Source: Rhodovulum tesquicola (GTDB taxonomy: Bacteria > Pseudomonadota > Alphaproteobacteria > Rhodobacterales > Rhodobacteraceae). Taken from it: a DNA stretch of 64,000 bases. A program made the translations under genes and the position numbers. Below are positions 11,686 to 22,837 of the stretch, piece after piece. Each line of letters starts with the position of its first letter. Position 1 is the first letter of the stretch. The notes under the pieces are model-generated. The model made no database searches. It was not told where the DNA came from and saw nothing but the letters and a program-made list of their open reading frames with translations. Location of the stretch: positions 1 through 64,000 of the forward strand of contig NZ_JAMYDV010000014.1 in the NCBI RefSeq assembly GCF_024128855.1, written 5' to 3'.

Positions 11686-12684
11686 TCAAGCATGGCCCCG
11701 CACTGATTCATGTTGGTGGTTCGCCAGCTTTACGGAGCTCTTTTCGCCGGGCAATCGATTTTCATCCGGCAGTTGTTCCATGCGCACTTGCGTGCCAGCG
11801 TGCCCTTCAACGATCCGGCGCGCGTCTTGCAGGCGGCCAATCCCGGCCATGGCACCGCCCGACCGCACGAAATCGCAGGCGGCGGTGATCTTTGGCCCCA
11901 TTGAGCCTGCCGCGAAGCTCATGGCGTCGAGCGCATCCGGCGTGACCTGGCCGATGGCGGCCTGATGCTGCCCACCCCAGTCGCGATACACCGCTTCCAC
12001 GTCGGTCAGCATCAAGAGGACATCGGCGTGCAGAGCCTGCGCCAGCAAGGCCGAAGTGCGATCCTTGTCGATCACCGCTTCGACGCCCTCCATCTTGCCA
12101 TCTGCACCACGCACCACCGGGATGCCACCACCGCCCGCACAGATCACGCAGACACCGGCTTCGACCAGCAAACGGATCGGCCCGATGCCCAGAATGGCCA
12201 CCGGCAGCGGGGATGGCACCACACGGCGCAACCCGCCCTTCGACTCTTCCACCATCGACCAGCGGTGTTCGGCGCGCACCAGTTTTGCCTCTTCCGCCGT
12301 GTAGACCGGGCCGATGGGTTTCGTGGGCTGGTCAAATGCGGGGTCTTGCGGGTCCACCTCCACCCGCGTCAGCAGCGTGGCGCAATCGGTGCCCTTCGGC
12401 AGGGCGTTCATCAGTTCCTGCTCGATCAGATAACCGATCATGCCTTCGGTCTCGGCGCCAAGGATATCCAGCGGCCAGGGGTTGTCCGGCGCATAGGCGG
12501 CAGAGCGCAGCGCCATCAGCCCGACCTGCGGGCCGTTGCCATGCGCCACGATGATCTGATGATCGCGCGCGAGATCGGCCAGAGCGGCCGCCGCGACGCG
12601 GACATTGGTATGCTGCGCCTCCGCGGTCATCGGCTCGCCGCGCTTCAACAGGGCATTGCCGCCCAGGGCAACCACGATCCGCAT
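11686..12684 (-). CDS. arcC: Carbamate kinase
   Basis: A 332-residue amino-acid-kinase-fold enzyme that converts carbamoyl phosphate and ADP to ATP, CO2 and NH3, the ATP-yielding step of the arginine deiminase pathway. The start MRIVVALGGNALLKRGEP is diagnostic, followed by VAHGNGPQVGLMALRS, a central VICAGGGGIPVVR, VIDKDRTSALLA and a C-terminal AAGSMGPKITAACDFV. It begins 1 bp after the arcB stop. A further SDR gene follows after a structured gap. Confidence 0.96.
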   Translation of the reverse strand: MRIVVALGGNALLKRGEPMTAEAQHTNVRVAAAALADLARDHQIIVAHGNGPQVGLMALRSAAYAPDNPWPLDILGAETEGMIGYLIEQELMNALPKGTDCATLLTRVEVDPQDPAFDQPTKPIGPVYTAEEAKLVRAEHRWSMVEESKGGLRRVVPSPLPVAILGIGPIRLLVEAGVCVICAGGGGIPVVRGADGKMEGVEAVIDKDRTSALLAQALHADVLLMLTDVEAVYRDWGGQHQAAIGQVTPDALDAMSFAAGSMGPKITAACDFVRSGGAMAGIGRLQDARRIVEGHAGTQVRMEQLPDENRLPGEKSSVKLANHQHESVRGHA

Positions 12685-12685
12685 C

Positions 12686-13687
12686 TCAGGCGCCTATCGT
12701 GGCGACAAGAACCGCCTTGATAGAGTGCAGCCGGTTTTCCGCCTGATCGAACACGACGGATGCGGGGGATTCAAACACCTCGTCCGTCACCTCCATGCAG
12801 TCGATGCCATATGTCTGGAACATTACCTCGCCTGTCTTGGTGTCGCGGTTGTGGAAGGCAGGCAGGCAATGCAGGAACTTGGTGTGCGGGTTGCCGGACA
12901 GGTCCATCACGTCCCGCGTCACGGTATAGGGCGACAGCAATGCGATGCGTTCGGCCCAGACCTCTTCGGGCTCGCCCATCGACACCCAGACATCAGTGTA
13001 GATGTAGTCGCAGCCCTCCACCCCTTCGGCCAGTTTCTCGGTCCGGGTGAGCCGCGCGCCGCTGGTTTCCGCCAGTTTGTGACATTGATCGACCAATGCC
13101 TGATCGGGCCACAGGCTTTGCGGGCCGCACAGCCTGATATCCATACCGATCAAGGCCGCCCCAAACATTAGGGATGTTCCCATGTTGCTGCCGGTGTCGC
13201 CGATGAAACAGAACGAAATGTCGGACAGGTGCTTGTGGGTGTATTCGCGCATCGTCATCAGATCGGCAAGGATCTGCGTCGGGTGAAATTCGTCCGTCAG
13301 CCCGTTGTAGACGGGCACCCCGGCAAATTGCGCCAGCACTTCTGCATCCGCCTGGCCAAAGCCGCGATACTCGATGGCGTCGTAGAACCGGCCCAGAACC
13401 CGCGCCGTGTCCTTCATCGTCTCCTTGGTGCCGATATGGCTGCCCGAAGGTCCCAGATAGGTGACATGTGCGCCCTGATCGAAGGCGGCAACTTCGAACG
13501 CGCTGCGGGTCCGCGTGCTATCTTTCTCGAAGATAAGGGCGATATTCTTGCCCTTCAGAAGCTGTTTTTCGGTGCCTGTCGCCTTGGCCTCCTTCAGGCT
13601 GGCACCGAGGCGAAGGAGAAACCTCAACTCGTCGGGTGAGAAGTCCAACAGTTTCAGGAAACTGCGACCGTGCAGGTTTTGGGGCAT
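12686..13687 (-). CDS. arcB: Ornithine carbamoyltransferase, catabolic (arginine deiminase pathway)
   Basis: A 333-residue transcarbamylase that here would run phosphorolysis of citrulline to ornithine and carbamoyl phosphate. The carbamoyl-phosphate site is [14 protein letters not shown], followed by [45 protein letters not shown] and the C-terminal [11 protein letters not shown]. The catabolic role is taken from its place between arcA and arcC; sequence alone does not separate it from the anabolic ArgF. AAAGGACC before the ATG is a good ribosome-binding site. Confidence 0.95.
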
Positions 13688-13717
13688 GGGGTGGTCCTTT
13701 CACGAAAATTGCGCGCA

Positions 13718-20740: not shown

Positions 20741-21018
20741 GCGCTGCCCATCCAGCGCCAGGCGAACCAGCCACCAAGCACAAGCCCGACCATCAGCAGC
20801 GGTGCCGTCCAGAACAGCCCCGTATCGAACCGCCCGTCCAGCCAGCGACCCAGAGCAATCCCGCCCAGCATCGGCGCCACGATGATCCAGCCCAACACGC
20901 CGATCTGCGCCAGCCGCCGACCGACCGATGCCTCTCCGTCACGCGCCCATGCCGCACGCCTTGCCTGATGGGTGCGCACTTCGCGGATCAGGGGATCGTC
21001 GTCTTCGGGGTCGCTCAT
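20737..21018 (-). CDS. atpQ: N-type ATPase AtpQ subunit (AtpI-like)
   Basis: A 93-residue protein with a charged N-terminus ([14 protein letters not shown]) and two TM helices (about 37-56 and 66-88), with GRWLDGRFDTGLFWTAP between. This resembles AtpI, the small assembly protein of F-type operons, and is the second N-type marker. I used the ATG at 21018, which overlaps the atpC stop by 4 bp; the frame open upstream of it is the antisense-free shadow of atpC. Confidence 0.88.
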   Translation of the reverse strand: MSDPEDDDPLIREVRTHQARRAAWARDGEASVGRRLAQIGVLGWIIVAPMLGGIALGRWLDGRFDTGLFWTAPLLMVGLVLGGWFAWRWMGSA

Positions 21019-21434
21019 ACACCCGCCCCCCGTGGTTTCGGCTGCAAGCGGGCCAGCATCTGCCGCATCGCGCTCAGGTGCAGGCGGGTGGTTTCCACAT
21101 GCTCGACCCGTTCCTCGTCCATCTCGGCGCGGAACCGGGCCAGCACCTCGCGGTCGAGCGTTGCCAGATCGTCGCCCGTCACCGCCTCGCGTGTGGCGAT
21201 GGCGACCTGGCCCGCGTTCACTGTCAGCGCCCCGCCGCGGACGGCGCAAAACCGGGCCGCACCGTCTGGCGCCGTCCACGAGACGACCGACACCGCAAGC
21301 CGGGTCAGGAAATCGGCATGGCCCGGCAGGATGCCAAAGCTGCCGCTGGCATCCATGGCGCGCAGGCTGCCGGCCGGCTGATCCACGATGATCGCCAGCG
21401 GGGTCATTATGCGCAGGGATATGGAGCGGGTCAT
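21015..21434 (-). CDS. atpC: N-type ATPase epsilon subunit
   Basis: A 139-residue F1 epsilon-like subunit. The N-terminal beta-sandwich includes [21 protein letters not shown], matching the family's G-x-x-x-I-L-P-x-H-x-x motif, and a short helical C-terminus ([21 protein letters not shown]) follows. The start at 21434 overlaps the beta stop by 4 bp (ATGA). The second position after atpD, rather than the last, is the N-type order. Confidence 0.9.
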
Positions 21435-22837
21435 GCGGCGGCCGTTTCTTTCGCACGCACGTCTGCAAAACGGCCAACCATGTAAAGAGATGCCTCGGCC
21501 CACTGATCCGCCTCGCCGTCCAGAATGGCGCGGCATCCGGCGAGTGTGTCAGCGCGCGTGACGGACTGGCCCGGTGTGCCGGTAAATGCCTCGGTCACGG
21601 CAAAGGGTTGGCTCAGGAAACGTTGCAGGCGCCGCGCACGCGTGACGATGCGCTTGTCGGCGCTGCCCAGCTCCTCGACGCCTAGAAGCGAGATGATGTC
21701 CTGCAATTCGGCAAACCGTGCCAGCATCTCGCGCACCTCGCTGGCAATCCGGTAGTGGTCATCGCCCACCACGGCCGGATCGAGCAGTGTGGAAGAGGAT
21801 GCCAGCGGATCAATCGCCGGGTAGAAGCCTTGCCCCGCCAGCGCGCGGCTCAGCACGATCACGCAATCCATGTGGCCCGAAATCGTCGTCACTGCCGGAT
21901 CGGTGAAATCGTCGGCCGGGACATAAACCGCTTGAATCGACGTCACCGCCGCGCCTGCGACCGAGGCGATGCGTTCCTGCAATCCCGCCACCTCGGAGGC
22001 CAGCGTCGGCTGATACCCGACGCGCGAGGGCAACCGGCCCAGCAGGCTGGATACCTCGGCCCCCGCCTGAACAAAGCGGAACACGTTGTCCATGAGCAGC
22101 AAAACGTTCTGGTGCTTTGTATCGCGAAAGTATTCCGAGATGGTCAGCGCGGTCAGTGGCGCGCGCCACCTTGCCCCCGGCGGTTCGTTCATCTGGCCGT
22201 AGACCAGCACCGTACGGGGCAGAACGCCCGACTCCGACATCTCGGTCAGCAACTCGTGCCCCTCGCGCGACCGCTCGCCGATGCCCGCAAAGACCGAGAT
22301 GCCCTCATATTTCTCGACCATGGCGTGGATCAGTTCCATCACCAGAACCGTCTTGCCCACGCCCGCACCGCCGAACATCGCCGCCTTGCCGCCCTGCGCC
22401 ATGGGCGTCAGCAGGTCGATCACCTTGATGCCGGTCTCGAACACCTCGGTCGTGGTGCTTTGCGCAGACAGCGGCGGCGGGGCGGCATGGATCGACCGGC
22501 GCGGCGTGTCCTCGGGCAGCGCCTCACCCAGATCGCGAAGGCCACCCGTCACATCGAGAAGTCGGCCCAGCACCGCGGCCCCCACCGGCACGGTGATCGG
22601 TGCACCGGATGCGCGCACGGGCACGCCACGCGCCAAGCCCGCCGTTGCATGCAAAGCGACCGCGCGCAGGGTCGTTAGGTCAAGATGGCTCTGCACCTCC
22701 AGCATCAGCGGGCCGGGGCGGTCCCATTCGACCAGCAGCGCCTCGTTGAGCGCTGGCAGCGTGCCCGAATCGTAACGCACATCGACCACCGCGCCGCGCA
22801 CGGCATGGACCCGCCCTGCGGGTGTCGCCTTGGGCAT
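21431..22837 (-). CDS. atpD: N-type ATPase beta subunit (catalytic)
   Basis: A 468-residue catalytic subunit. Walker A is GGAGVGKT (156-163), the catalytic glutamate is in [12 protein letters not shown] (187-189 region), Walker B is [12 protein letters not shown], and the C-terminal DELSD-like loop region is diverged, reading [16 protein letters not shown]. It is the first gene of the operon, which is N-type order (beta and epsilon first). GAAAGGAGACCC before the ATG is a strong ribosome-binding site. The upstream gap contains an FNR-like palindrome (22916-22929). Confidence 0.95.

Follow-up and report, generated by a model that had tools for sequence, protein, structure and literature searches.

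An N-type ATPase operon adjoining arginine deiminase genes in Rhodovulum tesquicola: a putative standby-energy module

In the 64,000-nucleotide stretch of the Rhodovulum tesquicola genome analyzed here (contig NZ_JAMYDV010000014.1, positions 1 to 64,000; hereafter the window), an intact nine-gene operon for an N-type ATPase is followed on the same, minus strand by genes for a YfcC-type carrier and the arginine deiminase pathway (arcA-arcB-arcC), with all reading frames open. The pairing recurs in related genomes, and boxes of the Crp/Fnr type precede both halves of the block. We propose that the block serves as a co-regulated module for standby energy in which ATP derived from arginine would fuel an ion pump under oxygen limitation, a reading to which we assign a probability of slightly under 0.6.

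The ATPase genes follow the N-type order beta-epsilon-Q-R-a-c-b-alpha-gamma (atpDCQRBEFAG). The operon begins with atpD (21431..22837), encoding a beta subunit of 468 amino acids that scores 618 bits against TIGR01039, over the cut-off, and 612 bits against the alternate-F1F0 model TIGR03305 (cut-off 752). It continues with atpC (epsilon; 21015..21434, its start picked to give a 4-base-pair [bp] overlap with the atpD stop), atpQ (20737..21018; AtpZ/ATPase_gene1 family, PF09527, 50.6 bits), and atpR, the marker subunit of N-ATPases (20474..20740; PF12966, 35.1 bits, cut-off 26). Next come atpB (a subunit; 19782..20474, PF00119), atpE (c subunit; 19536..19781), atpF (18790..19539), atpA (alpha, 504 amino acids; 17286..18800), and atpG (gamma; 16451..17293). 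As expected of the N-type, no delta gene lies between atpF and atpA, and the b subunit is extended to 249 amino acids, PF00430 covering residues 8-136 only. Among the NCBIfam alternate-F1F0 models, epsilon alone is over its cut-off (TIGR03166, 104.2 bits against 100.1), while alpha (581.5 against 750.5), gamma (64.4 against 282.35), and beta fall below theirs; the enzyme therefore represents a divergent N-type branch. A second alpha/beta operon in the host genome, of the F-type, is found on contig C19, separate from that of the window.

The earlier note on this DNA had the atp operon running straight into the arginine genes on the same strand, and the distance from atpG to the carrier gene is indeed exactly 70 bp. 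The carrier (14938..16380) belongs to the YfcC/DcuC family (PF03606, 413 bits; NF008611, 294 bits against a cut-off of 500), and its stop is overlapped by 4 bp by the start of arcA, encoding arginine deiminase (13718..14941). Downstream lie arcB, for a catabolic ornithine carbamoyltransferase (12686..13687), and arcC, for carbamate kinase (11686..12684). All three products exceed the cut-offs of their family models: 501.5 bits against 489.1 for TIGR01078, 395.6 against 280.85 for TIGR00658, and 374.9 against 358.25 for TIGR00746. With the catabolic-subfamily model NF003286, arcB scores 514.5 (cut-off 515). The carrier is likely an arginine/ornithine exchanger, a predicted substrate pair; relatives were sought among solved structures and none were found.

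A survey of N-type ATPase neighbors for arcABC, as the earlier note had suggested, shows that the arrangement is not confined to the window: it occurs in 13 of the 23 family genomes with both systems (the window included), in one genome of another family, and on one betaproteobacterial plasmid. We sampled 296 genomes of one alphaproteobacterial family, of which 56 have AtpR and 37 a true arcA (E below 1e-130), 20 of the 56 having both; six weak ArcA matches in AtpR-bearing genomes (E 1e-11 to 1e-5) were set aside as remote relatives of the amidinotransferase kind. Some N-ATPases escape detection by AtpR: a search for a second AtpD in the 17 AtpR-negative genomes with arcA revealed three more N-type operons (G121, G168, and G065), giving 23 of 296 genomes with both arcA and a detected N-ATPase. 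The loci analyzed leave out an AtpR fragment in G268 and a second AtpR copy in G215.

The two clusters lie within 10 kilobases (kb) of each other in 13 of these 23 genomes (12/22 without the window), which fall into two deep N-ATPase branches, and in all 13 no more than 1.5 kb separates the arc genes from the atp genes at their closest point. Five have atp then arc (G000, G012, G159, G073, and G294), five have arc then atp (G270, G285, G030, G121, and G168), and three are divergent (G205, G220, and G249). In the remaining ten, the clusters share a contig in two (G213, about 10 kb apart; G065, about 26 kb) and lie on different contigs in eight, which in draft genomes is no proof of distance. 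Co-occurrence is above expectation (arcA in 20/56 genomes with AtpR versus 17/240 without, P = 2e-7, ancestry ignored). For proximity, a binomial estimate gives about 2e-20, assuming a chance of 0.75% per genome and an independence among genomes that does not hold. Adjacency by chance was rejected, as 13/23 cases are seen against an expected fraction of one case. One genome, G1022, is 96.5% identical to the window over the fetched region.

Beyond the family, 32 of 387 genomes sampled from the class have AtpR, and among 30 newly tested only one has arcA, on another contig. In the phylum, AtpR is present in 21/397 genomes; two of 13 new ones carry arcA, linked in one (G1004) and 200 kb away in the other. 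Plasmid pRA02 of Roseicitreum antarcticum (L221) has the order yfcC-arcA-arcB-arcC-hdeD-atpD...atpG, the HdeD-family acid-resistance gene sitting between arcC and atpD at 20622-21182. On plasmid pOLGA1 of the betaproteobacterium Paraburkholderia phytofirmans, arcDABC is divergent from an N-type operon, the two being separated by flavodoxin, small hypothetical, and MBL-fold genes. A Loktanella salsilacus plasmid encodes a related arc cluster with no ATPase beside it. For plasmid N-ATPase loci of Cereibacter, Burkholderia pyrrocinia, and Paroceanicella, no arc genes, ackA, or phaC are listed within about 12 kb on either side in an incomplete gene table. A search of the genome contigs with AtpA returned mostly F-type operons and three N-type loci (L033-L035) with no arc genes in reach.

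The form of the junction differs among lineages. In L161 (G168) and in L223 (G1004, the representative of another family), arcC ends within the start of atpD, a 4-bp overlap (ATGA), and in L158 (G121) arcC and atpD are 2 nucleotides (nt) apart. In L186 (G050, 2332-6329), arcC overlaps an N-type atpD in the absence of arcA and arcB, with an acetate kinase gene divergently upstream; its carbamoyl phosphate must come from elsewhere. Among the signs that the pair can form a single transcription unit, these junctions are the strongest. In a tree built from joined AtpD and AtpA sequences (63 N-type rows), no fewer than 11 changes are required for the linked state, which marks the linkage as labile, made or lost repeatedly. 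In L163, atpG and yfcC are separated by a short acetate-kinase-like remnant plus two small genes (also in L166), which looks like the exchange of one kinase module for another. In L174 (G084, 2738-10050), which holds a close relative of the window's N-ATPase, atpG is followed directly by a Crp/Fnr gene, with no arc genes in between; the arc cluster of G084 is of a different type and on another contig.

The earlier note had reported no hairpin-plus-T-run between atpG and the carrier and had proposed a single 11-kb unit. Its first observation stands: a scan of 16300-16560 detected no terminator-like and no sigma70-like site, and the RNA of the 70-bp gap folds no better than shuffled sequences (z -0.03); a terminator there was rejected. 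A sigma70 consensus scan of 13.5 kb returned two sites, the number expected by chance. The gap does hold a conserved Crp/Fnr-type box, CTAACCTGCGTCAG (16441..16454, minus strand), overlapping the atpG stop codon, and 22 nt past it a -10-like hexamer, TACCCT (16413..16418, minus strand). The box center lies 32 bp upstream of the hexamer center, which is the geometry of class II Fnr promoters. Upstream of atpD is another such box, CTGATACACATCAG (22916..22929, minus strand), followed after N22 by the -10-like CACAAT (22893-22888, minus strand; 4/6 match). A cupin-domain-like gene (22919-23413, named by inspection) is divergent from atpD and could share this box.

We searched for the pattern YTRAYNNNNRTCAR within 220 bp upstream of start codons. 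In the window's clade it precedes 9/12 atpD and 9/10 yfcC genes, with the pattern widened after the sequences were seen; the canonical form alone gives 8/12 and 2/10, a point that tells against the proposed module. Background occurrence is 2.0% of 6540 tiles, and none of 18 F-type atpD genes has the pattern. Outside the clade, 7/19 yfcC regions carry it (6/8 N-ATPase-linked clusters versus 1/11 unlinked), and the unlinked clusters L156 and L160 have a box with one mismatch. In G006 and G251 the two modules are on different contigs, yet boxes are kept before both, and the same type of putative promoter is also found before arc clusters standing alone. A TA occurs exactly 22 nt past the box at 8/10 yfcC sites of the clade and at no more than 1/10 for each of the other 19 spacings tried; the spacing was first spotted in an alignment of five gaps, of which four were distinct and all four belong to the 10-site set, and of the remaining six, four agree. 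At atpD sites of the clade, mean hexamer similarity to TATAAT also peaks at spacing 22 (2.73), yet only 2/11 start with TA. The permutation value over all 43 sites is 5e-5.

As the gap has a box and a -10 at class II spacing and atpD has a box of its own, the window modules look contiguous and co-regulated from two promoters rather than from one 11-kb transcript, and the gap likely carries a conserved, independent-looking Crp/Fnr-type promoter for yfcC-arcABC. The earlier interpretation is supported in part: the recurrence of the neighborhood, the fusion of the pair in L161 and L223, and the lack of a detected terminator in the gap favor it, but a single 11-kb transcription unit is not supported for the window, whose gap likely carries a promoter. 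The earlier note had named a promoter within 16381-16450 with unlinked expression as grounds for giving up its proposal; a promoter there is likely, but the same box type before atpD predicts linked, not unlinked, expression. In the window the two halves lie head to tail under what look like separate promoters of one type; in other lineages they have been fused into one operon.

The acting regulator could be either of two proteins. The host encodes a clear FnrL (467 bits, cut-off 300). Convergent to arcC is a gene for a Crp/Fnr-family regulator (9865..10746, plus strand, true start uncertain), preceded by the box TTGATCGGGATCAG (9852-9865); its product, judged by inspection, lacks the FNR cysteine cluster. 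A study of Dinoroseobacter (PMC5398030) lists TTGAT-N4-ATCAA and TTAAC-N4-GTCAA as Fnr/Dnr sites and describes repression of the F-type operon via FnrL and DnrD.

The ion used by the enzyme is suggested by its c subunit, which contains two carboxylates, with E in helix 1 and the motif E-T-T-A-I-Y in helix 2. This site resembles that of the two-carboxylate ring 3zk1 (E-S-T-G-I-Y), a ring that binds Na+. Under the ProAD rule, as stated in section 5 of PMC11738941, a complete c-subunit site predicts Na+; the Na+-type site of the window is complete, so Na+ coupling is predicted, and the N-ATPase probably exports Na+. Thr occurs at this position in 16/16 arc-linked c subunits read versus 31/48 others; before ancestry correction, Fisher P values for a Na+-type ring are 0.0035 (arc-linked versus rest) and 5e-4 (any neighbor versus none). 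The stronger claim that arc linkage selects a Na+-type ring was rejected: independent pairs on the tree give no signal, and the association is not independent of ancestry.

Arginine genes are among several recurrent neighbors of N-ATPases. Clustering of the genes flanking 65 N-ATPase loci, with flanks of varying length, yielded Crp/Fnr regulators (14 loci), PHB synthases (13), Pta-type enzymes (10), acetate kinases (9), and short-chain reductases (9), all named by sequence inspection. Among 59 family N-ATPase loci, arcC is found in 15, ackA in 11, and either in 23. Around 18 F-type operons, taken from the window's own genome and 17 others that carry arcA, no arc genes, ackA, or phaC were found; for arcC or ackA in the fetched flanks, the contrast is thus 23/59 N-ATPase versus 0/18 F-type loci (Fisher 8e-4), although F-type operons, being core genes, do not control for mobility. 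The statistics were restricted to arcC and ackA because Pta counts are soft, with partial matches of about 100-120 bits at 8/18 F-type loci as well. Fourteen of the 44 family loci without arc adjoin acetate kinase, phosphotransacetylase, or PHB synthase. In L033, where pta, ackA, and phaC lie beside the N-ATPase, as well as in L177, L179, L217, L218, and others, phaC, the reductase, pta, and ackA follow or face the operon. By gene content, phaC-reductase-pta-ackA is a second recurrent fermentation neighborhood of N-ATPases.

What the sequences show is the gene content and its order, the recurrence of the pairing, the conserved boxes with their -10 spacing, and the Na+-type site of the c subunit. 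From these we infer a course of events extending from the regulator and its effect on expression, through carrier substrate and the direction and ion of the ATPase, to a physiological role and benefit, and a standby module is the most economical account of them. When oxygen becomes limiting, a Crp/Fnr-family regulator (FnrL or the neighbor of arcC) would activate the class II-type promoters before atpD and yfcC. The carrier would swap arginine for ornithine, and ArcA, ArcB, and ArcC would convert arginine to ornithine, CO2, and two ammonia, yielding one ATP with no need of respiration, as in the established arginine deiminase route. The N-ATPase would hydrolyze that ATP and export ions, probably Na+ in this branch, so that the membrane stays energized. 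That arcC-derived ATP drives the pump when respiration stops, as the earlier note had proposed, is a plausible idea in keeping with the Crp/Fnr-type boxes and with the kinases among the neighbors.

Several observations weigh against this module or limit its reach. Arginine is no general partner of N-ATPases, because 36/59 family N-ATPase genomes lack arcA and 30/59 family loci have none of arcC, ackA, pta, and phaC in their fetched flanks; 14/37 arcA genomes have no detected N-ATPase. Close linkage outside the family occurs in only 1/43 N-ATPase genomes (G1004, from another family of the same class), and the carrier is present in only 3/16 genomes of the window's own genus. The box pattern precedes just 11/52 N-type atpD genes outside the window's clade, is missing before both modules in L163 and before atpD in L166, and shows no spacing peak at 22 in the other two groups, outside that clade. 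Finally, the N-ATPase of B. pseudomallei is described in PMC5376962 as H+-coupled and is proposed there to serve acid stress and pH homeostasis.

Some of the same data could arise if both clusters were accessory cargo gathering in the same islands or plasmids with no joint work. Presence is patchy in the genus, the pair is plasmid-borne in Roseicitreum and Paraburkholderia, and the linkage changes repeatedly on the tree. In G1023, an 81% DNA match covers window positions 11784-22851 only (of 7001-30000) with a different upstream context, a comparison informative for the upstream side only, as that contig ends soon after arcC. Immediate adjacency, as opposed to loose clustering, in all 13 linked family genomes, start-stop overlaps, conserved order, same-type promoters, and the retention of arcC alone beside atpD in L186 make it an unlikely explanation by itself. 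An acid-stress kit, in which arginine deiminase ammonia would act together with proton export by the ATPase, has a classical precedent in acid-tolerant streptococci, where arginine deiminase is paired with the F-ATPase, and the hdeD gene that separates arcC from atpD in Roseicitreum pRA02 would suit it, as would the H+-specific B. pseudomallei ring with its proposed role in pH homeostasis (PMC5376962). It is nevertheless doubtful for the window, given the complete Na+-type site there and in the 16 arc-linked c subunits read (a signal not independent of ancestry), promoter boxes of the Crp/Fnr type, and acetate kinase and PHB synthase neighbors, which are at odds with acid defense. The suggestion in the earlier note that the pair might also hold pH through NH3 is for the same reason, the complete Na+-type site, the weaker half of its proposal. 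We regard it as quite improbable that the N-ATPase works as a synthase, its large c-ring making ATP at a low ion gradient and arginine providing only part. A c17 ring transports 5.7 ions per ATP (PMC5376962) and would also permit low-gradient synthesis, but neighbors that themselves supply ATP would be a better match for an enzyme that consumes it.

The standby-energy module shares features with several known systems and differs from each. Like arcDABC of Pseudomonas and related bacteria, an operon under Anr/Fnr control in Pseudomonas, the window cluster contains arcA, arcB, and arcC with a carrier upstream and a Crp/Fnr-type box before the carrier, but its carrier is of the YfcC/DcuC family and the cluster follows an ATPase operon. 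In streptococcal acid tolerance, arginine-derived ATP and ammonia likewise stand alongside an ion-pumping ATPase, but the loci are separate and the enzyme is the housekeeping F-type, whereas in the window a second, dedicated ATPase belongs to the gene cluster itself. The Pta-AckA-PHB synthase clusters at other family N-ATPases also place substrate-level phosphorylation beside the pump, with acetyl phosphate rather than carbamoyl phosphate as the ATP source. The c17 N1No enzyme of B. pseudomallei and related N-ATPases share with the window the D-C-Q-R-B-E-F-A-G order, atpR, a long b subunit, absence of delta, the status of a second ATPase in the genome, and two c-subunit carboxylates. The window operon differs in being joined in position with an arginine deiminase cluster and in the residue after E-T, which is Thr (Na+-type) in the window and Met63 in the H+-specific B. 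pseudomallei ring (Thr62-Met63; PMC5376962). In the text consulted on B. cenocepacia H111, no arginine fermentation genes are reported. The earlier note knew of no description of the pairing as a single system, and in the literature searched we likewise found no paper joining an N-ATPase or N-type ATPase with arginine deiminase or carbamate kinase, a result that does not establish its absence from print.

Elsewhere in the window, 4837-7170 and 51865-54342 encode a P-type metal ATPase with a YHS domain and a LonB-like protease, ordinary at the family level. Two divergent genes for Crp/Fnr-family regulators are located at 49569-51204; Fnr-like palindromes accompany them, at 48721 and 50366.

N-ATPases occur widely among prokaryotes, and their cellular role is described as largely unexplored, with salt stress and acid stress among the roles proposed (PMC5376962, PMC4154653). 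If correct, the boldest form of the present reading, which we hold somewhat less likely than not, would give them a defined job. That N-ATPases are recurrently linked with arginine fermentation, and at other loci with acetate kinase, raises the question whether the enzyme spends fermentation ATP on anoxic ion pumping, and it suggests a reason for keeping a second rotary ATPase, namely that the membrane may be energized without reversing the ATP synthase. The same pairing in several lineages suggests a standby kit that would keep the membrane charged when respiration stops.

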